Assembly (NCBI RefSeq): GCF_036227205.1
Contig: NZ_CP109442.1
Span: forward strand, 3,844,001 to 3,908,000
Direction: 5' to 3'
DNA length: 64,000 nt
From: Amycolatopsis sp. NBC_01480
GTDB taxonomy: Bacteria; Actinomycetota; Actinomycetes; Mycobacteriales; Pseudonocardiaceae
Below, one piece after another: positions 6,620 through 44,023 of this stretch (its first letter is position 1; each line of letters starts with the position of its first letter). The notes below the pieces were generated by a model. The model had not been told where the DNA came from. It saw nothing but the letters and a program-made list of their open reading frames with translations, and ran no database searches. The position numbers and the translations under genes were made by a program.

Positions 6620-6623
6620 AGCC

Positions 6624-11449: not shown

Positions 11450-13920
11450 CGATCGCCCCCGACAAGCCGGCGACCCAGGAGACCCCGGTCCCCGAAGGTC
11501 ACGTGAAGCTGATCATCGACGGTGAAGAGGTCATCGCGCCCAAGGGCGAGCTGCTGATCCGCACCGCCGAGCGGCTCGGCACGGTCATCCCGCGGTTCTG
11601 CGACCACCCGCTGCTCGACCCGGCCGGCGCCTGCCGCCAGTGCCTGGTCGAGGTGGAGATGGGCGGCCGGCCGATGCCGAAGCCGCAGGCCTCCTGCACC
11701 ATGACGGTCGCCGACGGCATGGTGGTCAAGACCCAGCTGACCTCGGCCGTCGCGGACAAGGCCCAGCACGGCGTGATGGAGCTGCTGCTCATCAACCACC
11801 CGCTGGACTGCCCGATCTGCGACAAGGGCGGCGAGTGCCCGCTGCAGAACCAGGCTCTGGCCCACGGCCGCACGGAATCGCGGTTCGTCGACACCAAGCG
11901 CACGTTCCCGAAGCCGCTGCCGATCTCCTCGCAGGTGCTGCTGGACCGGGAGCGCTGCGTGCTCTGCCAGCGCTGCACGCGGTTCTCCGCGCAGATCGCC
12001 GGCGACCCGTTCATCGAGCTGCTCGAACGCGGCGCGCACCAGCAGATCGGCACCGCCGAGACCGCGGACGTGCTGGACCTGGCCTCGCGCACCACTTCGG
12101 GCCAGCCGTTCCAGAGTTACTTCTCCGGCAACGTCATCCAGATCTGCCCGGTGGGCGCGCTGACCAGCGCGGCGTACCGGTTCCGGTCGCGGCCGTTCGA
12201 CCTGGTGTCGGCGCCGGGGGTGTGCGAGCACTGCTCGTCCGGCTGTGCCGAGCGCACCGACTTCCGCCGCGGCAAGGTGCAGCGCAAGCTGGCCGGCGAC
12301 GACCCGGAGGTGAACGAGGAGTGGCTGTGCGACAAGGGCCGCTTCGGCTTCCGCTACGTGCAGGCCGGTGACCGCATCCGCCGCCCGCTGGTCCGCAACG
12401 CGGCCGGCGAGCTGGAAGAGGCCTCCTGGACCGACGCGCTGCGCACCGCCGCCGAGGGCCTCGCGAAGGCCCGTGACGGCAAGGGCGCCGGCGTGCTCAC
12501 CGGCGGCCGGCTGACCACCGAGGACGCGTACGCGTACGCCAAGTTCGCGCGGATCGCGTTGCGCACCAACGACATCGACTTCCGCGCCCGCGCGCACTCG
12601 GCCGAGGAGCTGGCGTTCCTCACCTCGAACGTGCTGGGCACCACGCCGGAGAACGGCGTCACCTTCGGCGAGATCGAAACGGCCCGCACGGTCCTGTGCG
12701 TGGCCTTCGAGCCGGAGGACGAGGCGCCGATCGTGTTCCTGCGGCTGCGCAAGGCGGCCCGCAAGAACCGCACCCGGGTGCTCCACTTAGGACAGTGGAC
12801 GACCTCCTCGGTCCGCAAGACCTTCGGTGAGCTGCTGGCCTGCGTGCCGGGTGGCGAGGCCGCAGCGGTCGACGGCATCGCGCAGCACGCGGCCGACGTC
12901 GATGCCGCGCTCAGCGCCGAGGGCGCGGTGATCCTGGTCGGCGAGCGCGCCGCCGAGGTCCCGGGTCTGTTCTCCGCACTGCGCCGGCTCACCGAGCGCA
13001 CGGGCGCGCGGCTCGCGTGGATCCCGCGCCGGGCCGGCGAACGCGGCGCGCTGGAGGCCGGCTGCGCGCCGACGCTCCTGCCGGGCGGCCGTTCCGCCGA
13101 AGATGCCGACGCCCGCGCCGAGGTCGAAAAGCTTTGGGGCGTCACGCTTCCCGCCCAGGCGGGCCGCGACACCACGGGCATCCTCGAGGCCGCGTCCGGG
13201 CAGCAGCTCGACGCGCTGCTGGTCGGCGGCGTCGACCCGAACGACCTGCCCGACCCGGACCTGGCCCGGCGCGCGCTGGACAACGCCGGCTTCGTGGTCA
13301 GCCTGGAGCTGCGGGCGGGCGAGGTGACCGAGCGGGCCGACGTGGTCCTGCCGATCGCGCCGACGGTGGAGAAGGCGGGCAGCTTCCTCAACTGGGAGGG
13401 CCGCCACCGCCCGTTCGACATCACGCTCGAAGGCACCGGCGCACTGGCCGACAGCCGGGTGCTCGACACCCTCGCGGTCGAGATGGACGCGGACCTGTTC
13501 ACGCAGACCCCGGCCGCCGCGGCGGCCGACTTCGCCAAGCTGGGAGAGTCCCTGAAGGCCACCTTCAGGGACCCAGATGCCCTCAAGGTGGCCTTCAGGG
13601 CGAGCGAGCCGGGGGCGGGCCAGGCGTTGCTGTCCACCTGGCGGCAGCTGATCGACAACGGCTCGCTGCAGGACGACGAGCCGCACCTCAAGGGCACGCA
13701 GCGCGAGCCCGTCGCCCGCCTCTCGGCGAAGACGGCCGAGGGCCTCGGCGGCACCGTCCGCGTGTCGACCGAGCGCGGCGCGATCACGCTGCCGGTCGAG
13801 GTCGCCGACCTGCCCGACGGAGTCGTCTGGCTCCCGGGCAACTCCGACGGCTCCGCCGTCCGCGCCGCTCTCGGCGCGGGCCACGGCGCGCTGGTGCAGA
13901 TCTCCGGAGGTGAACAGTGA
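11446..13920 (+). CDS. nuoG: NADH-quinone oxidoreductase subunit G (with in-frame palindromic insert)
   Basis: 824 residues; 75-kDa subunit. N-terminal 2Fe-2S ligands lie in [15 protein letters not shown] and ASCTMTV, the His/Cys 4Fe-4S site in [17 protein letters not shown], cluster N4/N5 ligands in [12 protein letters not shown], and the extra N7-type site in CEHCSSGC plus WLCDKG. A molybdopterin-oxidoreductase-like C-terminal half follows. Residues 702-718 are encoded by a 51-bp palindromic element also found in the oxidoreductase gene at 41822. Codon 448 is TTA, rare at this GC content. Upstream open frame before 11446 is a nuoF shadow. Confidence 0.96.
13550..13600. repeat. 51-bp palindromic element inside nuoG
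   Basis: Two 21-base arms (13550-13570 and 13580-13600) with a 9-base spacer ACCCAGATG; the arms are reverse complements with one mismatch. Each arm is itself a near-palindrome of the CCCTGAAGG...CCTTCAGGG type. Length is 17 codons; read in frame with the flanking TCC it adds peptide [19 protein letters not shown] second copy lies at 42972-43022. Confidence 0.9.
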
Positions 13921-15260
13921 GCCCTCAGCTCACGCCGTTCCTGGACCAGATGCCGGACGCCGCCGAGCGGGCTCGCCTGCTCGCCGACGACCCGTGGTGG
14001 CTGATCCTGATCAAGGCCGTGGTCATCCTGCTGATCGGGCCGATCCTGACGATCTTCCTGATCGTCTGGGAGCGCAAGGCGGTCGGCCGGATGCAGAACC
14101 GGCCCGGCCCCAACCGGGTCGGCCCCGGCGGGTACCTGCAGTCGCTGGCCGACGCGATCAAGCTCCCGTTCAAGGAGCAGATCATCCCGGACACCGCCGA
14201 CCGCAAGGTGTACTTCCTCGCCCCGGTGCTCGCCGCCGTGCCCGCGCTGATCGCGCTGTCCGCGATCCCGTTCGGGCCGGTGGTCTCGATCTTCGGCCAG
14301 CAGACCACGCTGCAGCTGGTCGACCTGCCGGTGGGCGTGCTGGTGATCCTGGCCTGCTCGTCCATCGGCGTGTACGGCATCGTGCTGGCCGGCTGGGCCT
14401 CGGGCTCGCCGTACCCGCTGCTGGGCGCGCTGCGCTCGACCGCCCAGGTGATCTCCTACGAGATCGCGATGGGCCTGTCGATCGTCGCGGTGATCCTCTA
14501 CTCGGGCACGCTGTCCACCTCCGGGATCGTCGACGCGCAGGCCCACGGCTGGTACTTCTACATGCTCATCCCGAGCTTCGTGATCTACCTGATCTCGATG
14601 GTCGGCGAGACCAACCGCGCGCCGTTCGACCTCGCCGAGGCCGAGTCGGAGCTGGTCGGCGGCTTCCACACCGAGTACAGCTCGATGAAGTTCGCGATGT
14701 TCTTCCTCGCCGAGTACGTCAACATGGTGATCGTCTCGGCCTTCTGCACCACGCTGTTCCTCGGCGGCTGGCGCTTCCCGTTCGTCGGTGAAGACTCGGC
14801 GCTGAACCAGAACTGGTGGCCGATGCTCTGGTTCTTCGCGAAGACCTTCGTCCTCCTGTTCTGCTTCATCTGGCTGCGCGGCACGCTGCCGCGCATGCGC
14901 TACGACCAGTTCATGCGCCTGGGCTGGAAGGTGCTGGTGCCGGTCAACCTGGTCTGGATCGTCGTGGTGGTCGCCATCAAGACCGTCCAGTGGAGCTGGC
15001 CGCAGATCCTGGTCGGGGTCGGCATCGTCCTGGTCGTGCTGGTGCTGCTGAGCCTGGCGCTGCCGGAGAAGAAGGTGCCGAACGACGACTACGTGCCGAT
15101 CACCGGCGGCGGGCACCCGCTGCCGCCGCTGGACCTGAAGGTCCCCGAGAGCACCCCGCGCCGCAAGGCGCTGGCCAAGGCGGAGGCGAGGGCCGCCCGG
15201 CGGGCCCCGGCCGCCGTCGGCACCGCGGCAAAGGAAGGGGCGGAAGATGGCCAAGACTGA
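13917..15260 (+). CDS. nuoH: NADH-quinone oxidoreductase subunit H
   Basis: 447 residues; membrane subunit joining the peripheral arm to the proton pump modules and lining the quinone tunnel. About eight or nine hydrophobic segments; signatures [20 protein letters not shown] and [22 protein letters not shown]-terminal hydrophilic tail of about 60 residues is actinobacterial in type. GTG start overlapping nuoG stop by 4 bases; overlaps nuoI by 14 bases. Confidence 0.97.
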
Positions 15261-15783
15261 CTTCCTCAATCCCATCAAGGGTTTCGGCGTCACCTTCGCG
15301 ATGATGTTCAAGAAGGTCGCCACCGAGGAGTACCCGGAGGCCGGTGCCCCGGCCGCGCCGCGGTACCACGGGCGCCACCAGCTCAACCGGCACCCGGACG
15401 GGCTGGAGAAGTGCGTCGGCTGCGAGCTGTGCGCCTGGGCGTGCCCGGCCGACGCGATCTTCGTCGAGGGCGGCGACAACACCGAGGAGGCGCGGTTCTC
15501 CCCGGGTGAGCGCTACGGCGCGGACTACCAGATCAACTACCTGCGCTGCATCGGCTGCGGGTTGTGCATCGAGGCCTGCCCGACCCGGTCCCTGACGATG
15601 ATCAACTTCTACGAGATGGCGGACGACGACCGCCAGCGGCTGATCTACACCAAGGAAGACCTGCTCGCCCCGCTGCTGCCCGGCATGGAGCAGCCGCCGC
15701 ACCCGATGCGCCTGGGCGAGAACGAGCAGGACTACTACGTGAACGGCCCTGAGCTGGCGAAGCAGCAGGAGGGCAAGCAATGA
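15247..15783 (+). CDS. nuoI: NADH-quinone oxidoreductase subunit I
   Basis: 178 residues; ferredoxin-like subunit with two 4Fe-4S clusters (N6a, N6b), ligands [12 protein letters not shown] and [12 protein letters not shown]. Carries electrons from NuoG to NuoB. ATG start inside the end of nuoH, preceded by a purine-rich GGAAGGGGCGGAAG stretch; ends overlapping nuoJ by 4 bases. Confidence 0.97.
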
Positions 15784-16652
15784 TCACGGCTCTCCTCGCG
15801 CAGGCGCCCGCCGCCGCGGACGGTTCGGTCTCGGTCGGCGAGGCCATCGCGTTCTGGATCCTCGGCCCGCTCTGCCTGCTCGGCGCGCTGGGCATGATCT
15901 TCTCCCGCAACGCCGTGCACTCGGCGCTGTGGCTGGTGCTCACGATGCTGAGCCTGGGCGCGCTCTACATGACGCAGTCCGCGCCGTTCCTCGGGTTCAC
16001 GCAGATCATCGTCTACACCGGCGCGATCATGATGCTGTTCCTGTTCGTGCTGATGCTGGTCGGGCGGGAGAGCTCCGACTCGGTGGTCGAGGTCCTGCGC
16101 GGGCAGCGGATGGCGGCCACCCTGCTCGGCATCGGGCTCGCCGCGCTGATCGCGGCCGGCCTGTTCCGCTCGCTGGTGAACGTGACCCCGGCCGCGCCAC
16201 TCGACCCGTACACCCCGGCCGGCGGCGCCGCGGGCGGGCTGGGCCGGCTCATCTTCACCCAGTACCTGTTCCCGTTCGAGCTGACCTCGGCGCTGCTGAT
16301 CACCGCCGCGCTCGGCGCGATGGTGCTCGCCTTCACCGACCGGCATGCCAAGGGCGGCAAGCTCTCCCAGCGCGAGCTGGTGGTCATGCGCTTCCGCGGC
16401 GAGCACGACCGCCCGTCGCCGCTGCCCGGCCCGGGCGTGTTCGCCACGGCCAACTCCGTGGCCACCCCGGCCCTGCTGCCGGACGGCACGATCGCCCCCG
16501 AGTCGCTCTCGGCGATCATCGAGTCCACCTCGGCCGTGCAGCTCCTGCGCGACCGCAAGCTCGTCGCCGACGAGGGCCCGAAGCCGGACGCGCACGCGCT
16601 GGTCGGCGCCGAGTCCGAAGCCGGCGCGGAAGAGGAAGGGGAAGGCAAGTGA
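15780..16652 (+). CDS. nuoJ: NADH-quinone oxidoreductase subunit J
   Basis: 290 residues. Five hydrophobic segments in the first 190 residues (for example [20 protein letters not shown] and [20 protein letters not shown]), then a roughly 100-residue hydrophilic tail longer than in E. coli NuoJ but usual in actinobacteria. Proton-channel subunit of the membrane arm. Ends with GTGA overlap to nuoK. Confidence 0.95.
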
Positions 16653-16948
16653 CCCCGACCTACTACCTGCTGCTGTCGGCGTTGCTGTTCGCCATCGGCG
16701 CCGTGGGCGTCCTGGTCCGCCGGAACGCGATCGTGGTGTTCATGTGCATCGAGCTGATGCTGAACTCGGTGAACCTCACCCTGGTCACGTTCGCCCGGAT
16801 CAACGGCGGGCTCGACGGCCAGGTGATGGCGTTCTTCGTGATGGTCGTGGCCGCCGCCGAAGTCGTGGTGGGCCTGGCGATCATCATGTCGATCTTCCGC
16901 ACCCGGCGCTCGGCCTCGGTCGACGACACCAACCTGCTGAAGTACTGA
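16649..16948 (+). CDS. nuoK: NADH-quinone oxidoreductase subunit K
   Basis: 99 residues, three membrane segments; the family signature [16 protein letters not shown] contains the conserved glutamate needed for proton transfer. GTG start overlapping nuoJ by 4 bases. Confidence 0.97.
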
Positions 16949-16958
16949 GAGGGCGAGT

Positions 16959-18866
16959 GTGACCGCATCATCGTGGCTGCTGGTGGCCCTGCCGGCCCTC
17001 GGCGCCCTGATCCTGCTGCTGGCCGGGAAGCGTTCGAAGGCGTGGGGGCACCTGCTCGGCACCGCCACCGTCGTCGCCGCCTTCGTCTACGGCCTGATCC
17101 TGTTCTTCGGCTTCGACGGCAAATCCACTGTGGACACCAAGCTGTTCTCGTGGATCCCGGTCGGGCAGCTCCAGGTGGACTTCGGGCTGCGCATCGACGC
17201 GCTGTCGCTGACGTTCGTGCTGCTGATCACCGGCGTCGGCATGCTGATCCACTTCTACTCGATCGGCTACATGGCCGACGACGAGGGCAGGCACCGCTTC
17301 TTCGCGTACCTGAACCTCTTCGTCGCCTCGATGCTGATCCTGGTGCTGGGCAACAGCTTCGTGACGCTGTACCTCGGCTGGGAGGGGGTGGGCCTCGCGT
17401 CCTACCTGCTCATCGGCTGGTACCAGGACCGCCCGTCCGCGGCCACCGCGGCGAAGAAGGCGTTCCTGATGAACCGCGTCGGCGACGTCGGGCTGGCGCT
17501 GGCGATCTTCCTGATGTTCAAGTACGTCGGGTCCACCGGCTACGCGCAGGTCTTCGACGGCGTCGCGAGCGGCAAGATCCCGTCAGGCGCGATCACCGCG
17601 ATCGCGATCCTGCTGCTGCTGGGCGCCTGCGGTAAGTCGGGCCAGTTCCCGCTCCAGGCCTGGCTGCCGGACGCGATGGAGGGCCCGACCCCGGTCTCGG
17701 CCCTGATCCACGCGGCGACGATGGTCACCGCCGGGGTCTACCTGGTCGCCCGCTCCAACGTCATCTTCAGCCAGACGCCGGACGGCCGCCTGGTCGTGAC
17801 GCTGGTCGGGGCGGTGACCCTGCTGCTCGGGTCCATCGTCGGCTGCGCCTACGACGACATCAAGAAAGTGCTCGCCTACTCCACGGTCAGCCAGATCGGC
17901 TACATGATGCTGGCCGTGGGCCTCGGCCCGGGCATCTACGCGCTGGGCATCATGCACCTGGTCGCGCACGGCTTCTTCAAGGCCGGGCTCTTCCTCGGGG
18001 CCGGCTCGGTCATGCACGGCATGAACGACGAGGTCGACATGCGCAAGTTCGGCGGCCTGGCCAAGAAGATGCCGATCACCTTCGTCACCTTCGGCCTCGG
18101 CTACCTCGCGCTGATCGGCTTCCCGTTCCTCTCGGGCTACTACACGAAGGACGCGATCATCGAGGCCGCGTTCGGCCAGGAGGCCTGGCGCGGCTGGGTG
18201 TTCGGGCTGGCCACGGTCATCGGCGCCGGGCTCACCGCGTTCTACATGACCCGCCTGATGATGATGACGTTCTTCGGCAAGTCGCGCTGGAAGACGATCA
18301 AGAGCACCGACGGGCGCGAGTTCCACCCGCACGAGTCCAAGCCGGTGATGTGGATCCCGATGGTGATCCTGGCGGCCGGCTCGGTCGGCGCGGGCGCGTT
18401 CTTCGCCATCGGCAACCGGTTCGTGGACTGGCTCGCCCCGACCGTCGGCCAGTTCCACGAGGCCGAGCACACGCCGATCTCGGCGTCGCTGGTCCCGTGG
18501 CTGACCCTCGCGCTGGCCCTGATCGGCGCCGTGATCGCGGTCCTGGTCTTCCGGCCCAGCGCCGACATCCCGGTCGAACGCCCCGAGCGCGTCTCGTGGC
18601 CGATCCGGGCGGCGCGCAAGGACCTGTACGGCAACGCCATCAACGAGACGCTGGTCGCCCGCCCGGGCACCTGGCTCGCGCGGGCGCTGGTGTACGTCGA
18701 CAACCGGGGGGTGGACGGGGCGGTCAACGGCCTCGCCGCGGCCCTCGGCGGCGGGTCCGGCCGGTTGCGGCGCCTGCAGACCGGGTTCGTCCGGTCGTAC
18801 GCGCTGTCCATGCTCGGCGGCACGTTCCTGCTTCTCGCGGCCCTTCTGCTGGTGAGGTTCTCCTGA
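16959..18866 (+). CDS. nuoL: NADH-quinone oxidoreductase subunit L
   Basis: 635 residues; distal antiporter-like proton pump subunit with the long lateral helix. Signatures include [37 protein letters not shown] and a lysine-containing helix [23 protein letters not shown] start 10 bases after nuoK, with GAGAGGGCGAG upstream. One base separates it from nuoM. Confidence 0.97.
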
Positions 18867-18867
18867 C

Positions 18868-20448: not shown

Positions 20449-20451
20449 ACC

Positions 20452-22026
20452 GTGCTCGACATGTTCCTGGCGCAAGCGCCACAGCCGTTGCCGACGCCTT
20501 CGATCGACTACGCGGCCGTGCTGCCGATGCTGATCGTCCTCGGCATGGCCTGTGTGGGCGTGCTGGTGGAGGCGTTCGCGCCGAAGGCGGTCCGGTGGGG
20601 GATCCAGGTGACGATCTCCGTCATCGCGATCCTCGCGGCCGGGGTCTCGCTGATCCTGTACGCCACCGGCAGCTCGCCGAAGGCCGGGCTGACCACGTTC
20701 GCCGGCGCCATCTCGGTGGACCGGCCCTCGCTGTTCCTCTGGGGCACGCTGCTGCTGCTCTCGCTCGGCGCGGTGTTCCTGATCGCGGAGCGGAAGGTGG
20801 AGCCGGGCGGCGCGTTCGTCGCGCAGGCGGCGATCAGCCCCGGCACCGTGCAGGACCGCGCGCAGGCCGGCCCGACCACGGCGTCGCAGACCGAGGTGTT
20901 CCCGCTGACGCTGTTCGCCCTCGGCGGCATGATGGCGTTCTGCGCGGCCAACGACCTGCTGACCATGTTCATCGCCCTCGAGGTGCTGAGCCTGCCGCTG
21001 TACCTGATGTGCGGCCTGGCCCGGCGGCGCCGGCTGATCTCACAGGAGTCGGCGGTCAAGTACTTCCTGCTCGGCGCGTTCTCCTCGGCGTTTTTCCTCT
21101 ACGGCCTCGCACTGCTGTACGGCTACGCGAACTCCGTGAAGCTCGCCGACATCGCCAACGCCGCGGCCGGCTCGGACCGCTCGGACACGCTGCTGTTCGC
21201 CGGCCTCGGCCTGCTGGTGGTGGGCCTGCTGTTCAAGGGCTCGGTCGGCCCGTTCCACACCTGGACGCCGGACGTCTACCAGGGCGCCCCGACTCCGGTC
21301 ACCGCGTTCATGGCGGCCTGCACGAAGGTGGCCGCGTTCGGCGGGATCCTGCGCGTGCTGTCGGTCGCGTTCTCCTCGACCAGCTGGGAATGGCGCGGCG
21401 TGCTGTGGGCCGTGGCGATCATCTCGATGCTGATCGGCGCGGTGCTGGGCCTGACCCAGACCGACGTGAAGCGCATGATCGCGTACTCCTCGATCGCGCA
21501 CGCGGGCTTCCTGCTCGTCGGCGCCATCGCGATGACCGAGAACGGCCTGTCCAGCACCCTGTTCTACCTGCTGGCGTACGGCTTCACGACGCTCGCGGCG
21601 TTCGGCGTGATCAGCCTGGTCCGCGACGGCAGCGGGGAGGCCACGCACCTGTCCGCCTGGGCGGGCCTCGCCAAACGCTCGCCGGTGCTGGCCGGGGTGT
21701 TCACGTTCTTGTTGCTGGCGCTGGCCGGCATACCGTTGACCAGCGGGTTCGTCGGCAAGTTCGTGGTCTTCTCGGCCGCGCTGTCCGACGGCATGGCCCC
21801 GCTGGTGGTGGTGGCGCTGGTGTTCAGCGCGGTGGCCGCGTTCTTCTACTTGCGCGTGATCGTGCTGATGTACTTCTCCGAGCCGGCCGCGGACGGGCCC
21901 ACGGTCACGGTGCCCGGCGGGTTCACCACGGCGGCCATCACGCTCGGCGTGGTGGTGACGTTGGTGCTCGGCGTGGTTCCGGCGTTCGCGCTGAACTGGG
22001 CCTCTTCGGGCGGGTTCGCCTCGTAG
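20452..22026 (+). CDS. nuoN: NADH-quinone oxidoreductase subunit N
   Basis: 524 residues; third antiporter-like subunit and last gene of the operon. Signatures: FIALEVLSLPLYLMCGLARR, GLLFKGSVGPFHTWTPDVYQ, QTDVKRMIAYSSIAHAGF. GTG 20452 chosen (3 bases after nuoM stop); ATG 20461 is possible. Two bases after the stop a perfect 46-bp palindrome begins, likely the operon's terminator. Confidence 0.97.
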   Translation: MLDMFLAQAPQPLPTPSIDYAAVLPMLIVLGMACVGVLVEAFAPKAVRWGIQVTISVIAILAAGVSLILYATGSSPKAGLTTFAGAISVDRPSLFLWGTLLLLSLGAVFLIAERKVEPGGAFVAQAAISPGTVQDRAQAGPTTASQTEVFPLTLFALGGMMAFCAANDLLTMFIALEVLSLPLYLMCGLARRRRLISQESAVKYFLLGAFSSAFFLYGLALLYGYANSVKLADIANAAAGSDRSDTLLFAGLGLLVVGLLFKGSVGPFHTWTPDVYQGAPTPVTAFMAACTKVAAFGGILRVLSVAFSSTSWEWRGVLWAVAIISMLIGAVLGLTQTDVKRMIAYSSIAHAGFLLVGAIAMTENGLSSTLFYLLAYGFTTLAAFGVISLVRDGSGEATHLSAWAGLAKRSPVLAGVFTFLLLALAGIPLTSGFVGKFVVFSAALSDGMAPLVVVALVFSAVAAFFYLRVIVLMYFSEPAADGPTVTVPGGFTTAAITLGVVVTLVLGVVPAFALNWASSGGFAS

Positions 22027-22028
22027 GA

Positions 22029-22074
22029 CTCGTGAGTGTTTATGACGGTTCTAACCGTCATAAACACTCACGAG
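22029..22074. repeat. 46-bp palindromic repeat, copy 2 (perfect)
   Basis: Perfect inverted repeat: 22-bp arms beginning CTCGTGAGTGTTTATGACGG around a two-base centre. It lies between the convergent nuoN stop (22026) and the stop of the reverse-strand gene at 22084, filling almost the whole gap. Identical to copy 4 at 39828-39873. Confidence 0.95.
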
Positions 22075-22083
22075 TACTTGGGC

Positions 22084-31310: not shown

Positions 31311-31349
31311 ACGCAATGTTTAGCAGGTATACGCGCAGCAAACAGCGAT

Positions 31350-32950: not shown

Positions 32951-33001
32951 CGTTCGGGCGGGTGGCCGGGCTTTGGCGATACCTGCTCCGCTGGGGTCGG
33001 A

Positions 33002-33213: not shown

Positions 33214-33233
33214 AACCAGAGGGAGTGCGACAG

Positions 33234-33932: not shown

Positions 33933-33944
33933 CCGGCCCACGCG

Positions 33945-33979
33945 GCGCCGGGGGAAGCTTTCGCGGCTTCCCCCGGCGC
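33945..33979 (+). terminator. Intrinsic terminator-like hairpin after chitosanase
   Basis: Perfect 14-bp arms GCGCCGGGGGAAGC (33945-33958) and GCTTCCCCCGGCGC (33966-33979), loop of 7, 12 bases after the stop. No long T run, as usual in actinomycetes. The rest of the gap to 34152 is AT-richer and has two GGTAACGA motifs (near 34066 and 34094) but no gene. Confidence 0.85.
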
Positions 33980-34152
33980 TTCGTCGCTTCTTGGCCGGAA
34001 ATGGCCCAACGGCAATGAAAACCGCCGCACGCGAGGCAAAAAAAGCGAAATCGATACCGGGATTCGGTAACGATTCCCCCGGTGGCCGAAAGTGGTAACG
34101 AACGGCCCCCGCCTGCCGACCAACCCGTCAGCTAACGGGCGGAGGTTCGGGC

Positions 34153-35469: not shown

Positions 35470-36649
35470 CAAGAGAAGAGCGCTGATCCTGGTCGAGAAC
35501 CTCTCGGTCCCCTTCGACCGCCGCGTGTGGCAGGAGTGCACCACGCTGCGCGACGTCGGCTGGGAGGTGCACGTGATCTGCCCGCAGGGCACCAAACGTG
35601 ACACCGAGACCGAGGCCGTGATCGACCAGGTCCACATCCACCGTTACCCGCTCACGGCGGCCACCGGCGGCCCGGCCGGGTATTTGCAGGAGTACGGCAC
35701 CGCGCTGTGGCACACGTTCCGGCTCGCGCGCCGGATCGGCCCGGTCGACGTCGTGCACGCCTGCAACCCGCCGGACCTGCTGTTCCTGGTCGCCCGGATG
35801 CTCAAGCGCCAGGGCGCGAAGTTCGTCTTCGACCAGCACGACCTCGTGCCGGAGCTGTACCTCTCGCGGTTCGACCGCGGGCAGGACGTGCTCTACCGTG
35901 GCGTCTGCGCGCTGGAGCGGTCCACCTACCGGGCGGCCGACGTCGTCATCGCCACCAACGAGAGCTACCGCCAGGTGGCGCTGATCCGCGGCGGCAAGCG
36001 GCCCGAGGACGTGTTCGTGGTCCGCAGCGCGCCCGTGGTCGAGCGGTTCCACGAGGTGCCGGTCGAGCCGGAACTCAAGCGGGGCAAGCCACATCTGCTC
36101 TGCTACCTCGGCGTGATGGGCCCGCAGGACGGCGTCGACTACGCGTTGCGCGCGCTGGCTTCGCTGCGCGACGAGGTGGGCCGCGACGACTGGCAGGCCG
36201 TGTTCGTCGGCGCCGGCGACACCTTCGACGAGATGGTGGCGCTGTCGAAACAGCTGGGCCTGGACAACCAGGTCGAGTTCACCGGCCGCGTCTCGGACGC
36301 CGACCTGCTGCGTTACCTGTCCGCGGCCGACGTGTGCCTTTCGCCGGACCCGCTCAATCCGCTCAACGACGTGTCGACCATGAACAAGATCATGGAGTAC
36401 ATGGCGATGAGCAAGCCGATCGTCTCGTTCGAGCTGCGGGAGGCCCGGGTTTCCGCCGGCGAGGCCGCGCGCTACGCCCCACCCAACGACGTCGCCGAGT
36501 TCGCCCGGCTGGTCGGGGAGCTGCTCGACGCCCCGGAGGAGCGCGCCCGGATGGGCAAGCTCGGCCAGGAGCGGGTCAGCGGGCCGTTGGCTTGGGGGAA
36601 TTCGCAGCAGGCGCTGCTGGCCGCGTATGAGCGGGCTGTCCGGTCTTGA
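35459..36649 (+). CDS. GT4 glycosyltransferase (WbuB-like)
   Basis: 396 residues. Opens LPGDKRRALILVENLSVPFD, and has VIATNESYRQVAL and the C-terminal DPLNPLNDVSTMNKIMEYMA motif typical of WbuB-type transferases that extend lipid-linked repeat units. The start is TTG at 35459, inside the end of the dehydrogenase gene, with AGAGGGA 10 bases before; no ATG or GTG fits. Cytoplasmic face of the membrane. Sugar unknown; GDP-uronate from the upstream enzyme is a candidate donor. Confidence 0.85.
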   Translation: MPGDKRRALILVENLSVPFDRRVWQECTTLRDVGWEVHVICPQGTKRDTETEAVIDQVHIHRYPLTAATGGPAGYLQEYGTALWHTFRLARRIGPVDVVHACNPPDLLFLVARMLKRQGAKFVFDQHDLVPELYLSRFDRGQDVLYRGVCALERSTYRAADVVIATNESYRQVALIRGGKRPEDVFVVRSAPVVERFHEVPVEPELKRGKPHLLCYLGVMGPQDGVDYALRALASLRDEVGRDDWQAVFVGAGDTFDEMVALSKQLGLDNQVEFTGRVSDADLLRYLSAADVCLSPDPLNPLNDVSTMNKIMEYMAMSKPIVSFELREARVSAGEAARYAPPNDVAEFARLVGELLDAPEERARMGKLGQERVSGPLAWGNSQQALLAAYERAVRS

Positions 36650-36762
36650 TCGCGGTTTGAACAAGCATCGAGGGTATTTGTAACCAACACCCGCGGGCTG
36701 ACGACGGGGTCTATGACTCCGCACGCCACCAGTGAAGTGCAAATGTGGGAAGGGACCCCGCT

Positions 36763-38127
36763 TTGAGCGACGACACGGTTCGGCTTTCCACAGTGGGAGT
36801 GCTCCTCCGGCGGCGGTGGCGGGCGTTGCTGCTGCTGACGGTGATCGGCGCGGGAGTCGGCGCCGGCGCTTCGCTGGTTTTCTCGCCGGGGTACGAGACC
36901 TCGGCGAGCGTGCTGCTTCAGGGCCCGCGCCAGGCCGACGAACTGCTCACCCAAGCGCAGGTCGCCACCAGTTCCGTGGTGCTGGACCGCGCGTCGGCCA
37001 CGCTCGGCCTGCGGGTCAGCGGCACGGACCTGCAGAAGTCGGTGACCGCTTCGGTGGCGCAGGGCAACGTCGTGACGATCACGGCCAGCGGGGACAGCCC
37101 GGTGTCGGCGCAGCAGCTGGCGGACGAGGTGGCGAAGGAGTTCGTCAAGTACTCCACCCAGCTGCTCAGCAATTCGGCGAACAGCGCGGCCCAGCTCGCG
37201 CAGCAGCAGCGCGAATCACTGCGGCAGCAGGTGACCCAGACCAATCAGCGGATCCTCGACCTGTCCCGCTCGGTGCAGGACGGCCAGACCGTCGAGGCCG
37301 TGCAGGTGCGGACCGAGCTGCAGGGCCTGCGCACCTCGCTGGAACAGGCGATGAACAACCTCAACGCGGCCGACGCCGCCACCGGCTCGGGCAACATGGT
37401 CGTGATGGGCCCGGCCGAACGGCCGACGTCCGCGGCTGTGCCCACCCAGCCGCAGCTGATCGCCGGCGGCGCGGTCCTTTTCTTCCTGATCGGCCTGCTC
37501 AGCTATCTCTTCGGCGCGCGCACCGATCGACGGTTGCGCGGCGAGGAGGAGATCGGCTCGGCCCTCGGCGCGCCCGTGCTGGCCGCCGTCGACGTGCCCG
37601 AGCCTGCCGAACGCGCGAAGCCCGTCGGCTTCCGGGCGCGGCTGCGCCGGTTCACCGGCAGCGACCGGCCGTGGCACCTGCCCCAGATGCCGGCTTCGGC
37701 CGACCGGGCCAGCCGCGACCGGCGGTACCACCGGGTGCTCGCCCGGCTGACGGCCGAAAAAGGGGTCCGGCGGCTGCTCGTGCTGGTCGCCGAGGGCGAC
37801 ACCGTGGCGAAGCAGGCCGTCGCCCAGTTCACGAACCTGGCGGACGCCGCCCGGCCCCGCGTCGAGCTGACCATCGCCGAAGTGACGGTGGCGCAACCGG
37901 TTGTGCCGGACGGCAGCACCGGCGTGCTCGTGGTGCTCTCCCTCGGCTCGCGCAACGCGTGGGAACTGGTCGCCATCGCGGAGGCCTGCGCCGACGCCGG
38001 GCACGAGGTGCTGGGCGCCGTGCTCACCCGCGCTGTCCGCGTGAAGGGCAAGACGCGTGACCAACCCGCCGACGCGGGTCCACCCGAGGTCCAGGCGGAC
38101 CGTGACGTGATGGTTGGTTCGGCGTGA
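36763..38127 (+). CDS. Wzz-like polysaccharide copolymerase with degenerate kinase domain (1)
   Basis: 454 residues. TTG 36763 is preceded by AAGGGA at ideal spacing (7), preferable to the GTG at 36745. First membrane segment about residues 20-40, then an extracytoplasmic Gln-rich coiled-coil region (AAQLAQQQRESLRQQVTQTN), second membrane segment about 230-250. The cytoplasmic C-terminus has the outline of a bacterial tyrosine kinase domain (LLVLVAEGDTVAKQAV; VLVVLSLGSRNAWELVAI) but no Walker A lysine motif. Sets chain length of the exopolysaccharide by analogy with Wzz/CapA. Overlaps the next, related gene by 4 bases. Confidence 0.8.
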   Translation: MSDDTVRLSTVGVLLRRRWRALLLLTVIGAGVGAGASLVFSPGYETSASVLLQGPRQADELLTQAQVATSSVVLDRASATLGLRVSGTDLQKSVTASVAQGNVVTITASGDSPVSAQQLADEVAKEFVKYSTQLLSNSANSAAQLAQQQRESLRQQVTQTNQRILDLSRSVQDGQTVEAVQVRTELQGLRTSLEQAMNNLNAADAATGSGNMVVMGPAERPTSAAVPTQPQLIAGGAVLFFLIGLLSYLFGARTDRRLRGEEEIGSALGAPVLAAVDVPEPAERAKPVGFRARLRRFTGSDRPWHLPQMPASADRASRDRRYHRVLARLTAEKGVRRLLVLVAEGDTVAKQAVAQFTNLADAARPRVELTIAEVTVAQPVVPDGSTGVLVVLSLGSRNAWELVAIAEACADAGHEVLGAVLTRAVRVKGKTRDQPADAGPPEVQADRDVMVGSA

Positions 38128-39827
38128 CGAGTCCGCAGAGTTCCTCCCCGCCGCTGGTCGACCTGCACCGCCTGGGCGTGGCCCTGCGCCGCCGTCGCCG
38201 GCTGTGGCTCGGCTTCGCGCTGGCCGGGCTGGTGATCGGCGGGACTTCGGCGGTCGTGCTGCCCGCGGCGCCGACCGCCGTCACCAAGGTCCTCGTGGTG
38301 CACCCGGACGACTCGCCCACCGACAGCGGCACGCTGATGCGCACCGACGTCGCGGTGCTGCAGACCGGGAAGATCGCCTCCGCGGCGTTGAAGAAGCTCG
38401 GCAGCACGGAAGCGCCGGCGGACTTCCTCAAGGAGTACACCGGCCTCGGCATGACCAACAACATCATGCAGGTTTCGGTCAAGGCCAAGACAAACGCCGA
38501 CGCCGTCGCCAAGGCACAGGCGCTCGCCGACGTGTTCATCGCCGACCACGTGCAGCGCAACCAGGCCGCCGCGACCGCGCAGGCCAAGGCGCTGCTGGAC
38601 CAGCGCGCGCAGGCCCAGCAGCAGCTGGCGGACGTCGACGCGCAGGTCGCGGCCGAGACCGACAAGGGCAGCAAGGCGAACGCGGGCACGCTCGAGCAGC
38701 TCTACACGCAGCGGGCCGACCTGGTGTCGAAGGTCGCGGACCTGCAGAACCAGGCGCAGCAGGCGGGCATCGGCACGCCGCAGGTCGCCGCGGGCACCCA
38801 GATCGTGGACGCGCCGGTCGTGCTGCCGGCGTCACTGCTGAAGACCGGTGCCACGGACGGCGCCATCGGCCTCGCGCTGGGACTGGCGCTGGGCCTCGGA
38901 TTCGCCGCGGTGACGGCGTTGGTGCGCGACCGGCCGGTACTGCGCCGGGAGATCGCCGAGCACCTCGGCGCCTCGGTGATCGCCCAGCTGCGCTCGAAAC
39001 TGCCCGGCCCGTCGCGGCTCTGGTCCCGCGGCTCGGCGGTGGTGGAGCGCAAGCGCGTGGCGGTCACGCTGGCCCGCGCCATCCGCTCGGAGCGGGGGCC
39101 GCTTGCGGTGCTGGAGCTGGGCGCGCCCGGCGTCGCCGCGGAGCTGGCGCTGAACCTGGCGAAGGAGCTGGCCGAGGACGGCCCGGTGGTAGTCGTCGAC
39201 GACCTGCCGCACCGCGACGTCGGCAAGCTGCCGGTCGAGGGCGACGTGCGGGTGGCCGGCGCGGGTGACGCGGCGATCGACGCGGCGTCCCGGCGCATCG
39301 GCGTCGGCACGGTCACGCCGGGCACCGCGTGGACGGACCTGGAATACCTGGGCACGGAGGCGGTGCTCGTCGTCCGCGCCGGGCACGCGAACACGCTGTG
39401 GCTGCACACGGTCGCGCGCCAGCTCGCCGACTGCCGGATCCCGATCGCCGGCGTGGTGCTGGTCGACCCGGACCCGAAGGACCACACCGACGGCACACTC
39501 TGGGACGGCCTGCACACGGCGTTGCGGGGCCGGGCCTCGGCCGTCGCCGCCAAGCAGGTCGAGGGCGAGCCGGCCGTGCACGCCACGGCCGAACGGGTCC
39601 CGGTCAAGCACATCCCGGCCGAGGCCGGGCCGCGCAAGTTCGTCGAGCAGGAGCCGGAGCGGCCGATCGACTGGCCGGTGGAGCTGCCGGACGAGCAGAC
39701 CGTGGTGGCCCCGCCCGTCGTGGTCCCGCGCGGGACCGACTCGTTCGACGCGCCGACCCGCCGGTTCCACCCGATCGTCCCGCCCTCGGGCACCACCGTC
39801 GGCAATGGCCACGGCCACCAGACCTGA
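38124..39827 (+). CDS. Wzz-like polysaccharide copolymerase with degenerate kinase domain (2)
   Basis: 567 residues, GTG start. Membrane segments near residues 27-48 and 241-262, with a coiled-coil between (QAKALLDQRAQAQQQLADVD). The C-terminal domain (residues about 320-480) matches a BY-kinase fold: a position-equivalent to Walker A reads LELGAPGVAAELALNLA, lacking GK-T/S, while VVVVDDLP resembles Walker B. A Pro/Glu-rich tail ends at the stop that abuts the palindromic repeat. Likely partner of the preceding gene in controlling polymerisation or export. Confidence 0.8.
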   Translation: MTSPQSSSPPLVDLHRLGVALRRRRRLWLGFALAGLVIGGTSAVVLPAAPTAVTKVLVVHPDDSPTDSGTLMRTDVAVLQTGKIASAALKKLGSTEAPADFLKEYTGLGMTNNIMQVSVKAKTNADAVAKAQALADVFIADHVQRNQAAATAQAKALLDQRAQAQQQLADVDAQVAAETDKGSKANAGTLEQLYTQRADLVSKVADLQNQAQQAGIGTPQVAAGTQIVDAPVVLPASLLKTGATDGAIGLALGLALGLGFAAVTALVRDRPVLRREIAEHLGASVIAQLRSKLPGPSRLWSRGSAVVERKRVAVTLARAIRSERGPLAVLELGAPGVAAELALNLAKELAEDGPVVVVDDLPHRDVGKLPVEGDVRVAGAGDAAIDAASRRIGVGTVTPGTAWTDLEYLGTEAVLVVRAGHANTLWLHTVARQLADCRIPIAGVVLVDPDPKDHTDGTLWDGLHTALRGRASAVAAKQVEGEPAVHATAERVPVKHIPAEAGPRKFVEQEPERPIDWPVELPDEQTVVAPPVVVPRGTDSFDAPTRRFHPIVPPSGTTVGNGHGHQT

Positions 39828-39873
39828 CTCGTGAGTGTTTATGACGGTTCTAACCGTCATAAACACTCACGAG
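39828..39873. repeat. 46-bp palindromic repeat, copy 4 (perfect)
   Basis: Begins on the base after the TGA stop of the second Wzz-like gene; identical to copy 2. Lies between two genes of the same strand in what otherwise looks like one operon, so it may cause partial termination or mRNA processing before asnB. Confidence 0.95.
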
Positions 39874-39900
39874 TCCTGACCTGCAGAGAGGCGAACGCCG

Positions 39901-41814
39901 ATGTGCGGCATCGCAGGTGCTTACCACTGGCCGGACGGCGGCCCGCTGACCGACCGGCTCACCAAGTGCCTCACGCACCGCGGGCCGGACGGCTCGGGCC
40001 GCTACGACCACCGTTCCGGCCCCGGTGAGGTCCACTTAGGACACCGCAGGCTGTCGATCATCGACCTGTCCGAGACGGGCGCGCAGCCGATGGTGGCCGA
40101 GGGCCTGGCCCTGACCTACAACGGCGAGCTGTACAACGCGCCCGAGCTGCGGGTCGAGCTGGAAGCGAAGGGCGTGAAGTTCCGCGGCACGTCCGACACC
40201 GAGGTGCTGTTGCGCGCCTGGCGCGAGTGGGGCACGGACTGCCTGCCGCGGCTGCGCGGCATGTTCGCGTTCGGCGTCTTCGACGAGCGCACCGGTGAGC
40301 TGGTGCTGGTGCGCGACCAGCTGGGCATCAAGCCGCTGTTCTTCGTCCGGCGCGGCGGTGGTGTCGTTTTCTCCTCGGAGCTGAAGGCGCTGGCCGGCGA
40401 GCTGGGCGGCACGCTCCGGATGGACGAGGCCGCGCTCATCGCGTCACTGCTCTACTACTGGGTGCCGGACAGCCGGTGCGCCTACCGCGAAGCCGAGAAG
40501 CTGCAACCCGGCACGTGGGCGCGGTTCCGGCCGGACGGCACCAGCGAGCGCGGCACGTACTGGTCGCTGCGCCAGGTGGCAGAGGAAGGCGCCGCGTACA
40601 CCGGAGACGTCGACCTGCACGCCGTGATCGCGGACTCCACCAGCAAGCACCTGCTTTCCGACGTGCCGGTGGCCACCTTCCTCTCCGGCGGCCTCGACTC
40701 CAGCTACCTGACCGCGCTCGCCGCCCGGCAGACACCCGGGATTTCCGCTTACACCATCGGTTTCCGCGCCGAGGACGCCAAGTTCGAGGCGATGCCGGAC
40801 GACCTGAAGTACGCGCGGATCGTCGCGAAGCAGTTCGGCGTCGACCTGCACGAGATCGAGATCGCGCCGCAGGTGCTCGACCTGCTGCCGCGGATGACCT
40901 ACCACCTCGACGAGCCGATCGGCGATCCCGCGGCGATCAACTCGTTCCTGATCTGCTCGGCCGCGCGCGAGGCCGGGGTCAAGGTGCTCCTCTCGGGCAT
41001 GGGCGCGGACGAGCTGTTCGCCGGGTACCGCAAGCACTTCGCGAACCAGCTGGCCCTGCGCTACCAGCGGGTGCCGGGCCCGGTGCGCCGGCCGATCGGC
41101 GCCGTGGTGGACCGGCTGCCGGTCGCGTCCGCCAGCCGCGGCTACCGGACGGTGCGGTTCGCCAAGCGGTTCCTGTCGTTCGCGGAACTGCCGGAAGAGA
41201 CGGCGTTCCGGCGCAGCTACACCATGTACGACCGCGGCGAGCTGCTCGACCTGGTGAACCCGGACCTGGCCGCCGAGGTGGACGACGTGCTCACCGAGCA
41301 CACGGACACGTACAACGACAACTCGCTGACCGACTACGTCAACCGCATGTGCCTCGCCGATTCCCGGATGTTCCTGCCCGGCCTGAACCTGGCCTACACC
41401 GACCGCTCGACGATGGCCGCGTCCACCGAGGTGCGCACGCCGTTTGTCGACGTCGAGGTGGTCAAGGCCGCGTTCCGGGTGCCAGGCAACAAGAAGATCG
41501 TCGGACGCCAGGGCAAGGCGGCGCTCAAGGAGGCCGCCCTGGCGATCCTGCCGAAGGAGATCGTCTACCGGCCGAAGGGCCTGTTCAGCGCCCCGCTGCG
41601 GGCCTGGATGAGCCGGGACCTCGCGCCGCTGGTGCGGGAGGTCGTGAACGAGGGCGTGCTCGTCGAATCCGGGTTCCTGCGGCGCGACGCGTTGCAGAAG
41701 CTCGTGGCCGAGGACGCCGCCGGGCAGCAGGACCGGGCCAAGCACCTCTGGCACATCTTGACCCTCGAGTACTGGTACCGCGGCGCCCAGGCCGCCGCGG
41801 CGTCGAGCAGCTAG
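39901..41814 (+). CDS. asnB: AsnB-type glutamine-hydrolysing amidotransferase
   Basis: 637 residues. N-terminal Ntn glutaminase with catalytic Cys2 (MCGIAGAYHW), RGPDGSG and the LTYNGELYN loop; C-terminal synthase domain with PP-loop SGGLDSS at about residues 262-268. Inside polysaccharide clusters such proteins (as WbpS/WbpG types) may amidate uronic acids or supply ammonia, instead of making free asparagine. Residue 46 uses a rare TTA codon. AGAGAGG ribosome site. Followed 7 bases later by the two-domain oxidoreductase. Confidence 0.85.
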   Translation: MCGIAGAYHWPDGGPLTDRLTKCLTHRGPDGSGRYDHRSGPGEVHLGHRRLSIIDLSETGAQPMVAEGLALTYNGELYNAPELRVELEAKGVKFRGTSDTEVLLRAWREWGTDCLPRLRGMFAFGVFDERTGELVLVRDQLGIKPLFFVRRGGGVVFSSELKALAGELGGTLRMDEAALIASLLYYWVPDSRCAYREAEKLQPGTWARFRPDGTSERGTYWSLRQVAEEGAAYTGDVDLHAVIADSTSKHLLSDVPVATFLSGGLDSSYLTALAARQTPGISAYTIGFRAEDAKFEAMPDDLKYARIVAKQFGVDLHEIEIAPQVLDLLPRMTYHLDEPIGDPAAINSFLICSAAREAGVKVLLSGMGADELFAGYRKHFANQLALRYQRVPGPVRRPIGAVVDRLPVASASRGYRTVRFAKRFLSFAELPEETAFRRSYTMYDRGELLDLVNPDLAAEVDDVLTEHTDTYNDNSLTDYVNRMCLADSRMFLPGLNLAYTDRSTMAASTEVRTPFVDVEVVKAAFRVPGNKKIVGRQGKAALKEAALAILPKEIVYRPKGLFSAPLRAWMSRDLAPLVREVVNEGVLVESGFLRRDALQKLVAEDAAGQQDRAKHLWHILTLEYWYRGAQAAAASSS

Positions 41815-41821
41815 GAGCGTT

Positions 41822-44023
41822 GTGAAGCAGGTAGTGCAGAACTACAAGAGCGGGGAGCTGGCACTCCTCGACGTCCCGGTGCCCGCGTGCAAGCCGGGCG
41901 GCGTGCTCGTGCGCACCACGTACTCGCTGATCTCCACCGGCACCGAGATGATGAAGGTGTCCGAGGCGAGCATGTCCATGCTGGGCAAGGCGCGCTCGCG
42001 GCCGGACCAGGTGGCGAAGGTGATGCAGAGCGTCGCGACCAACGGCCTGCCCGCGACCTATCGCAAGGTGACCAACAAGCTCGACTCGTACACCCCGCTC
42101 GGCTACTCGCTTTGCGGCGTGGTCGAAGAGGTCGGCGCGGGGATCGACGACGTCTCCGTCGGCGACCTCGTCGCGTGCGCCGGCAACGAGCACGCGCTGC
42201 ACGCGGAGCTGAACTGGGTGCCGAAGAACCTGTACGCGAAGGTGCCTGCCGGGCTTTCCGCGCGGCACGCGGCGTTCGGCACCGTGGGCTCGATCGCGAT
42301 GCAGGGCGTCCGCCGCGGGGAGCCGCAGCTCGGAGACCTCGCGCTGGTGATCGGGCTGGGCCTGATCGGGCAGCTCGTGGTCCAGCTGCTGGTGGCCTCG
42401 GGCGCACGGGTGGTCGGCGTCGACCCGGACCCGTCCCGCTGCGAGCTGGCCCAGGGGCTCGGCGCGCTGGCCTGCGGTCACCCGGGTTCCGGGCTGATCG
42501 CCAACGCGGTGGCCGAGCTGTCCGGCGGCCACGGCGCCGACCAGGTCTACCTCGCCGCGGGCGGTAGCACGAACGACCCGGTGGAGCTGGCCGCGAAGCT
42601 CGCGCGCGACCGCGGGCGCGTGGTCGACATCGGCAAGATCTCGCTGAACCTGCCGTGGAACGCGTACTACGAGAAGGAGCTGGACGTCCGGTTCTCCCGC
42701 TCGTACGGGCCCGGGCGCTACGACCCGTCGTACGAGCTGGAGGGCCGCGATTACCCGATCGGCTACGTGCGCTGGACCGAGCGGCGCAACATCGAGTGCT
42801 TCCTCGACCTGGCGGCGCGCGACAAGCTGGACGTCGAGCCGCTGATCACGCACGTGGCGGACTTCTCTTCCGCCGTGGAGACCTACAAATCGCTCAACGA
42901 CGGGGAGTTGAAGGCCGTCGCGGTGCTGTTCCGCTACCCGGACGCGCCGCTCACCTCCTCCCCGCCGCAGTCCCTGAAGGCCACCATGAGGGACCCAGAT
43001 GCCCTCAAGGTGGCCTTCAGAGCACGTCCGGAACCGCGGAGCGGCGGGCTGAGGGTCGGGTTTGTGGGGGCCGGCAACTACGCGTCGTCGATGCTGCTGC
43101 CGCACCTGGTCGAGCAGGACCGCGTCAGCCTGGCCGAGGTGGTCACCACTTCGGCGCTGTCCGGCGCGAACGCCAAGCGCAAGTTCGGCTTCGCCCGCGC
43201 GAGCACCGACCTCGACCAGCTGCTCGCGAACGAAGCAGTCGACACGCTGTTCATCGTGACCCGGCACAGCTCGCACGCCGAGCTGACCCGGCGCGCGCTG
43301 CTCGCGGGCAAGGCCGTGTTCGTGGAGAAGCCGCTGGCACTGTCCGAAAAGGAGCTTCGCGGGATCGTCGAGGCGATCGCGGAGTCGGGCAACAACCGGC
43401 TCCAGGTCGGCTTCAACCGCCGGTTCGCGCCGCTGCTGAACGAGGCGCGGCTCCAGTTCGGCCCGCGCGTCGGCCCGGCTTCGGTGCGCTACCTGGTGAA
43501 CGCGGGCCGGCTCGACTCCGGCAGCTGGTACAACCAGGCCGGCGCCGAGGGCACCCGGTTCGCCGGCGAGGGCGGGCACTTCATCGACACCGTCAGCTGG
43601 TTCCTGGGCAGCGACCCGGTTTCGGTCTACGCCACCGCCGCCCCGGGCAACAACGACCTGCAGGTGCTCCTGCGCTACGCCGACGGCTCGACCGCCGCGA
43701 TCAGCTACGTCACCAGCGGATCCACCGCGTTCCCGAAGGAGACGCTGGACGTGCTGGCCGACGGCCGGGTGCTGAAGTTCGACGACTTCACCAGGGCGTC
43801 CGTCTACAGCAAGAAACGCTGGTCCAGCTCGCGCATCCCGAAGGGCCGCGACAAGGGCCAGCGTGCCGAGATCGAGGCCTTCGTGACGGCGCTGACCACC
43901 GGCGTCGCGATGCCGATCAGCGTCGGCTCCCTGGTGGCGACCACGCTGGCGACGCTCGCGGTGAACCGCAGCCTCGAAACCGGCGCGCCGGTGCGGCTGG
44001 AGCCTTCGGCGGTGCTCGGGTGA
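41822..44023 (+). CDS. Two-domain oxidoreductase: zinc-type dehydrogenase fused to Gfo/Idh/MocA
   Basis: 733 residues. N-terminal medium-chain dehydrogenase (residues 1-375) with NAD motif VIGLGLIGQLVVQLLVASGA; C-terminal Gfo/Idh/MocA domain from about residue 410 with VGFVGAGNYASSMLLPHL and the family EKP motif in AVFVEKPLALS. This 'bi-domain oxidoreductase' occurs next to heparinase-like and AsnB-like genes in many exopolysaccharide loci; reaction unknown, presumably on a nucleotide or lipid-linked sugar. The linker between domains is encoded by the 51-bp palindromic element. GTG start; TGATG overlap with the next gene. Confidence 0.85.
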   Translation: MKQVVQNYKSGELALLDVPVPACKPGGVLVRTTYSLISTGTEMMKVSEASMSMLGKARSRPDQVAKVMQSVATNGLPATYRKVTNKLDSYTPLGYSLCGVVEEVGAGIDDVSVGDLVACAGNEHALHAELNWVPKNLYAKVPAGLSARHAAFGTVGSIAMQGVRRGEPQLGDLALVIGLGLIGQLVVQLLVASGARVVGVDPDPSRCELAQGLGALACGHPGSGLIANAVAELSGGHGADQVYLAAGGSTNDPVELAAKLARDRGRVVDIGKISLNLPWNAYYEKELDVRFSRSYGPGRYDPSYELEGRDYPIGYVRWTERRNIECFLDLAARDKLDVEPLITHVADFSSAVETYKSLNDGELKAVAVLFRYPDAPLTSSPPQSLKATMRDPDALKVAFRARPEPRSGGLRVGFVGAGNYASSMLLPHLVEQDRVSLAEVVTTSALSGANAKRKFGFARASTDLDQLLANEAVDTLFIVTRHSSHAELTRRALLAGKAVFVEKPLALSEKELRGIVEAIAESGNNRLQVGFNRRFAPLLNEARLQFGPRVGPASVRYLVNAGRLDSGSWYNQAGAEGTRFAGEGGHFIDTVSWFLGSDPVSVYATAAPGNNDLQVLLRYADGSTAAISYVTSGSTAFPKETLDVLADGRVLKFDDFTRASVYSKKRWSSSRIPKGRDKGQRAEIEAFVTALTTGVAMPISVGSLVATTLATLAVNRSLETGAPVRLEPSAVLG
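42972..43022. repeat. 51-bp palindromic element inside the two-domain oxidoreductase gene
   Basis: 21-base arms 42972-42992 and 43002-43022, spacer ACCCAGATG identical to the nuoG copy. Two arm mismatches. Encodes [18 protein letters not shown] in the same phase as in nuoG. It falls at the junction of the two enzyme domains. Confidence 0.92.

Follow-up and report, generated by a model that had tools for sequence, protein, structure and literature searches.

Two in-frame 51-bp palindromes of an Amycolatopsis genome belong to a dispersed family of REP-like repeats

The window analyzed in this work is a stretch of 64,000 nucleotides from the genome of Amycolatopsis sp. NBC_01480 (10.1 Mb, two contigs), which belongs to an antibiotic-producing genus of soil bacteria. 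Two genes of the window each contain a 51-bp palindrome composed of two 21-nt arms separated by a 9-nt spacer (21-9-21), and a third palindrome of a different spelling lies between genes:

5643..5693, no strand assigned: intergenic palindrome, CCCAATGTGGC... spelling, 15 bp after the stop of gene 4374-5627
11446..13920, + strand: nuoG, NADH-quinone oxidoreductase subunit G, 824 aa (gene call, Pfam)
13550..13600, no strand assigned: 51-bp palindrome, 21-9-21, inside nuoG, residues about 702-718 (pattern match)
41822..44023, + strand: two-domain oxidoreductase, ADH-Gfo/Idh fusion, 733 aa (gene call, Pfam)
42972..43022, no strand assigned: second coding 51-bp palindrome, in the fusion oxidoreductase, residues about 384-400 (pattern match)

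The two coding palindromes were first pointed out in a first-pass annotation of the window, which described a common 21-9-21 layout, spacer and reading phase; a scan of the window reproduced these details and the coordinates exactly. The arms of the nuoG copy are 95% complementary, and the oxidoreductase copy has the identical layout, with its clean arm scored as 19 nt. Both copies contain the spacer ACCCAGATG and are translated in equal phase into 17 residues after (S). When the window was searched with the four arms of these copies (both strands, up to three mismatches), five matches were found against 0.00 expected from 100 shuffles. The copies are indeed stop-free in-frame inserts, as had been proposed, and both host genes align to their orthologues on either side of the insert.

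The two inserts occupy similar positions in their proteins. In NuoG, the insert is located between a PF00384 match (residues 310-655) and a PF01568 match (729-800) that falls under the Pfam cut-off. In the oxidoreductase, it lies between the ADH_zinc_N (182-300) and GFO_IDH_MocA (410-531) domains, in agreement with the earlier suggestion that it forms an interdomain linker. Among solved structures, the best match to NuoG is 8e9g_G, which aligns on either side of the insert and has a different linker of its own. A structure model of this part of NuoG, of modest quality (mean pLDDT 66.5), gave pLDDT values below 50 for 11 of the 17 insert residues. A simple scan of 11446-14800 revealed no promoter-like or terminator-like sites, no Rfam family reached its cut-off within the window, and the nuoG copy had no matches in plasmid and phage collections at E 1e-5. 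The nearest named nuoG records belong to Amycolatopsis.

Comparison with orthologues showed that the 17 residues do not form part of an ancient conserved region in either NuoG or the oxidoreductase. Among 30 aligned oxidoreductase loci, drawn from 63 strongly matching genomes, only the one from NBC_01480 contains the insert; it is absent from all 29 relatives. The annotation had expected a clean 51-base gap in orthologues lacking the element, and this was not borne out: in close relatives that have no repeat, the nuoG linker is shorter by only about 3-4 residues, and in the oxidoreductase of G047, the closest relative, the corresponding segment is shorter by only 7, so that about ten oxidoreductase residues were replaced. 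Duplicated target bases, also anticipated, were not found by eye at ten intergenic sites or in the two linkers.

A search of the whole genome for the family pattern (up to three mismatches) revealed 33 matches, and its reversed control none; the additional copies that the annotation had proposed to look for are therefore present. All 33 were either retrieved with their surroundings or located in the window. Two longer arrays reduce these 33 dimers to 31 loci, and the counts omit two shorter hairpins with similar ends that were fetched alongside (L036 and L059). The arm CYCTGAAGGCCACCWTSAGRG is near-invariant over the 33 dimers, with two alternative letters at a few positions; the spacer is variable. 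Other spacers also recur in two or three copies; the spacer common to the two coding copies was therefore dropped as a special feature and marks a sub-lineage at most. The predicted RNA hairpins of the 33 dimers have a mean folding energy of -37.5 kcal/mol (range -49.0 to -12.7). The two arrays, L048 (about 6.486 Mb) and L051 (about 7.258 Mb), contain more than two arms in a 30-bp register, and in L051 the flank past the last arm is the reverse complement of the neighbouring spacer, repeated.

The distribution of the loci relative to genes, as called by a finder trained on the same genome, is biased. Twenty-nine of the 31 loci are intergenic, and the copies in nuoG and the oxidoreductase gene are the only coding ones. 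The intergenic loci comprise 14 convergent, 13 tandem and 2 divergent gaps, compared with 13, 49 and 22, respectively, among 84 background gaps, all of 30 bp or more, that the retrieved sequence contains. A stop codon was found within 56 bp of 23 of the 29 intergenic loci; for four of the 27 loci with an adjoining gene 3' end, the nearest such end is 260-1382 bp away. A hairpin just after a stop codon is a typical trait of intrinsic terminators. The other such trait, the U-tract, is missing here: none of the 66 dimer flanks contains five or more T in eight positions.

To see how the copies compare with related genomes, orthologous gene ends of ten sites were sought in ten relatives, and 60 regions from eight of them were fetched, with incomplete coverage of the sites. 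G047 is the nearest genome as judged from its nuoG and oxidoreductase genes. Inspection by eye of the sequence after the stop codon in G047 revealed no element at eight of the ten sites, a different palindrome downstream of gltA, and an orthologous copy at L044 with a spacer nearly identical to that in NBC_01480. Genome-wide, the pattern with up to two mismatches occurs 30 times in NBC_01480, twice in G047, once in G060 and not at all in G010 and G056. Because the counts in the relatives are so low (2, 0, 0 and 1 versus 30), gain in NBC_01480 is likelier than loss in the relatives, and sequence comparison thus indicates that the family likely spread recently in this genome.

The eight G047 sites without the element gave an idea of what may have preceded it. 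At L047, L049 and L056, a strong ordinary hairpin present in G047 is gone in NBC_01480 (by eye). At L045 and L046, the ordinary hairpin persists next to the element, and the element therefore need not be the terminator there. At L038, L043 and L052, G047 has a weaker structure only, so strong ordinary hairpins are present at five of the eight sites. Three copies (L033, L035 and L052) lie next to the end of an older palindrome, and such a palindrome is still found at gltA in G047; in a count of shared flank words, this end recurred in the three copies and the remaining words were chance-like. Neither a target duplication nor a clean empty site was recognised by eye at the eight G047 sites, where very short ones could escape. 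These observations suggest that older sequence was replaced, not added to.

Repeats of the same geometry are widespread in the genus. With up to two mismatches, the family pattern was found in 46 of 80 Amycolatopsis genomes (1 to 106 forward matches). The CCCAATGTGGC spelling, represented in the window by the palindrome at 5643..5693, is present in 49 of 80 genomes with up to 321 forward matches (102 in NBC_01480), and a repeat of this type occupies the nuoG linker in five other genomes. A further spelling, TTATGAACGG, was detected in only three of 80 genomes, with 141 (in G013), 25 and 2 forward matches. Among the TTATGAACGG matches listed for G013, the first 20 loci comprise 14 convergent, 4 tandem and 1 coding site and 1 that is incomplete at the edge, and both single arms and 30-bp dimers are present. 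L188, a record named Amycolatopsis coloradensis, has the same nuoG linker as G013. A third protein of G013, an ABC transporter as judged by eye, contains an in-frame copy of the TTATGAACGG spelling in a different phase. In-frame insertion into unrelated genes, as the annotation described it for nuoG and the fusion oxidoreductase, thus extends to a third gene and another spelling.

In a scan of the fetched regions for palindromes of 51 or 52 bp with at least 18 of 21 pairs, the loci of NBC_01480 gave 33, of which 27 are family copies, and eight relatives gave 60; none was found in shuffles preserving local composition. Of the 140 arms that other genomes contributed to the 51-bp kind, 100 share the skeleton AA-N7-TT (A6A7 and T15T16); some of the remaining arms resemble ordinary terminators. 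Spelling thus turns over fast between species, while the geometry and some of the sites persist.

Several other palindromes were noticed during this work. Two near-identical 52-bp palindromes (GACTCGTGAGTGTTTATGACGGTTCTAACCGTC...) are located at 22026-22077 and 39825-39876, at the predicted ends of genes 20452-22026 and 38124-39827, and palindromes with GTGAGTG ... CACTCAC and GGTT ... AACC parts resembling them are present in G047 and G043. A 51-bp palindrome of a further spelling (CAGCGGATGACGCTTTCCCC...) lies between predicted genes at 63406-63456. A separate palindrome family around TCGTCCTCT (L319, L323, L327 and L338) recurs in G013, G020 and G043. Finally, L335 of G073 contains an unusual cluster of several CTGTGAAGGGGCCCTTCACGG... 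palindromes within about 10 kb (about 6542-15973).

Some gene ends are occupied in more than one species. At the gltA 3' end, a hairpin-forming palindrome was seen by eye in 11 of 11 genomes; in nine of them it is full size, and about eight spellings are represented, with G009 and G010 sharing one. In a comparison over the fetched regions (at least 16 of 21 pairs, orthologous ends set by position, convergent gaps scored from both sides), a 21-9-21 palindrome with the arm skeleton was present at 22 of 73 orthologous 3' ends versus 17 of 452 other 3' ends, and at 19 of 59 versus 11 of 150 when convergent ends only were considered; this comparison missed the L044 orthologue. Counted per gap, 13 of 48 orthologous gaps were occupied by the scan used, and the sharing of sites is partial because the other 35 were empty.

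The nuoG linker is a recurrent site of a similar kind inside a gene. The nuoG regions of 70 of the 80 genus genomes were compared (the ten weakest matches were left out), giving 69 readable linkers. Sixteen of them contain a period-30 palindromic repeat, in eight spellings according to our own grouping, and 53 do not. From 80 named nuoG records with 73 readable linkers, four Prauserella and three Saccharomonospora sequences add five spellings, which brings the total in this grouping to 13 spellings in three genera. When 80 named nuo loci (most of about 6.6 kb) were scanned at a threshold of at least 18 of 21 pairs, which omits weaker-paired linker repeats such as L172 and L179, ten palindromes were revealed and all ten were in the nuoG linker, beginning at locus positions 3290-3311. 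Linkers with two arms are about 3-6 residues longer than plain linkers of related species, and those with three arms about 13 residues longer.

In a quick tree of 110 nuoG rows built with the linker excluded, the presence or absence of the repeat requires 16 changes, 11 of which are forced by starred branches; these may be gains, losses or exchanges of alleles between species. L066, with the repeat, and L069, without it, share 95-97% identity upstream and 95-99% downstream, and 62% over the first 21 linker bases compared. We read the nuoG linker as a place hit or rewritten many times. By eye, all 13 spellings are translated in the same phase. This phase was considered as a sign of common origin and rejected as such, since four of the 13 spellings have no alternative open phase and the G013 copy uses another one. 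In L089, L123 and L138, the repeat peptide EMKDAFIADFAMKDAFIA is identical while the codons differ, a hint of constraint at the protein level after insertion.

For comparison with known repeat systems we relied on excerpts of two papers (PMC3733652 and PMC10969869). The repeats studied here most resemble REP elements and BIMEs: they are arm-sized palindromes, single or paired, with some in-frame copies, and they occur near gene 3' ends and between convergent genes, which is the habitat described for REPs in the excerpts (PMC3733652). A REP is a palindromic unit of 20-40 bp, present in many copies and mostly extragenic; here, 21-bp arms make up 33 dimers and 29 of 31 loci are intergenic, and single arms occur in the other spelling of G013. 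As with the different REPs reported at about the same recB site in two Xanthomonas species (PMC3733652), differing repeats are found at one site. However, inspection by eye of the arm feet in the 33 dimers revealed neither a constant GTAG nor a constant CGTC tag; the letters there vary (ACGT, CATN, TCGT and others). The 30-bp register, the 51-bp dimers, the variety of spellings that three genera show at a single coding site and the actinomycete host also distinguish the present repeats. A resident RAYT (Y1 transposase), as known for GTAG REPs, was not found: a search for its domain, PF01797, was negative in all 80 genomes and positive in 5 of 14 control genomes, and a RAYT origin therefore finds no support. 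CGTC REPs, too, are reported to lack a dedicated transposase (PMC3733652).

The annotation had likened the inserts to the palindromic elements of Rickettsia. The likeness, palindromic repeats lying in frame inside unrelated genes, holds for the two coding copies. It fails for the family as a whole: the other 29 of the 31 loci lie between genes, mostly near stop codons. The main Rickettsia elements are described as about 150 bp long and mostly inserted in ORFs (PMC10969869; PMC3733652), whereas the present ones are 51 bp and coding at two of 31 loci; the smaller RPE-4 and RPE-6 are reported to be REP-sized (PMC3733652). The Rickettsia comparison can thus be regarded as a fair analogy for two coding copies only. 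The pneumococcal BOX, RUP and SPRITE repeats are short, bunched and even nested in one another, one kind being terminator-like (PMC10969869); older-palindrome ends flanking three of our copies recall this nesting, but here the U-tract is absent and the host and the sequence are different. The repeats are therefore REP-like and are filed in neither the REP nor the Rickettsia family. Literature searches on palindromic, REP or MITE repeats in Amycolatopsis, Pseudonocardiaceae, Streptomyces and Actinobacteria and on nuoG, in which few subscription journals were covered, gave no such description among the matches listed. The terms palindrome, repetitive, inverted repeat and terminator gave no match in a term search of the A. 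orientalis genome paper (PMC4048454).

Taken together, the data are best explained by a dispersed, RAYT-independent REP/BIME-like repeat that copies itself onto gene 3' ends and of which the two inserts represent coding copies; we give this reading a probability of about two in three. The original interpretation is partly supported: its idea of an in-frame palindrome that spreads in a high-GC actinomycete gains support from the other copies, from the location of both inserts between Pfam domains and from the lack of ancient conservation of the 17 residues. The unit would be an arm of about 21-25 bp that is complementary to itself; a pair of such arms in a 30-bp register would form the 51-bp palindrome, and arms could also stand singly or in longer arrays. 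Near-invariant arms are present at 31 places and mostly absent at the tested G047 sites, and would therefore have spread by copying; copying is deduced here from the distribution because neither a mobilising enzyme, as sought through PF01797, nor an intermediate nor a target duplication was found. New copies would settle mainly just 3' of stop codons, sometimes replacing an existing hairpin or landing on an older palindrome. Indeed, the preference for gene ends and the vanished ordinary hairpins point to hairpins as a target or a tolerated place. At gene ends the element would most likely provide a 3' hairpin for the flanking genes, in termination or in protection of the mRNA end. A stand-in terminator role is plausible from the sequence, and the absence of a U-tract after the hairpins leaves it short of proof. 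Within genes, copies would survive where translation can continue in frame across the 51 bp in a flexible linker between domains, probably by tolerance in the protein and not by benefit to it.

More tentatively, the Pseudonocardiaceae might possess a RAYT-independent copying system acting on dyad arms of fixed geometry (AA-N7-TT, 21-bp arms, 30-bp register), which would rewrite the same gene-end hairpins and the nuoG linker with new spellings in each lineage. The confidences given to the different explanations overlap, since the processes that they invoke (copying, a transposase acting in trans, overwriting) may operate side by side.

It is conceivable, if somewhat doubtful, that old palindromes keep their positions and are changed in each genome to its current spelling, for example by gene conversion, the nuoG site being ancestral. 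Such overwriting is compatible with copying and would account for the gltA palindromes (11 of 11 genomes, nine full size, about eight spellings), for the coincidence of occupied 3' ends between species and for the single phase of all 13 nuoG spellings. However, the spellings differ at many positions and would therefore offer weak homology for conversion, presence differs from G047 at eight of ten sites, and stop codons dictate part of the phase agreement, leaving 4 of 13 spellings no other open phase, with the copy in the other protein using another phase.

A conventional MITE moved in trans by a resident non-RAYT transposase and landing at hairpins, an explanation that overlaps with the preferred one, seems unlikely to us. 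A dispersed inverted-repeat element, likely gained recently and patchy across species, fits this description, but no target duplication or clean empty site was recognised at the eight G047 sites, and dimers, single arms and 30-bp-period arrays coexist.

We consider it improbable that the repeats are only strong bidirectional terminators, immobile, under selection and alike because one factor recognises them. Their placement after stop codons and between convergent genes, their strong folding (mean -37.5 kcal/mol) and the strong ordinary hairpins at five of eight empty G047 sites agree with this possibility; selection for a hairpin nevertheless fails to explain the near-invariant arm letters over 33 dimers, a spelling confined to three of 80 genomes, the absence at eight of ten G047 sites or the copies in the middle of nuoG. 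Finally, a functional 17-residue peptide selected in both proteins is very improbable despite the equal phase and spacer and the identical EMKDAFIADFAMKDAFIA encoded by different codons in nuoG of three species, since 53 of 69 genus nuoG linkers have no such repeat, the insert is found in 0 of 29 aligned oxidoreductase relatives and most of its residues have a pLDDT below 50 in a modest model.

The copying of REP-like repeats onto gene ends that we favour suggests that the gene-end hairpins of the Amycolatopsis group are mobile. In these genomes, palindromes of changing spelling can be followed from one lineage to the next at a single gene end, or in a single linker of a respiratory-chain protein; this natural series makes the birth, spread and replacement of REP-like repeats in the absence of a RAYT testable by the comparison of sister strains. 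The same genomes also extend beyond Rickettsia the cases in which palindromic repeats supply enzymes with interdomain linker sequence.
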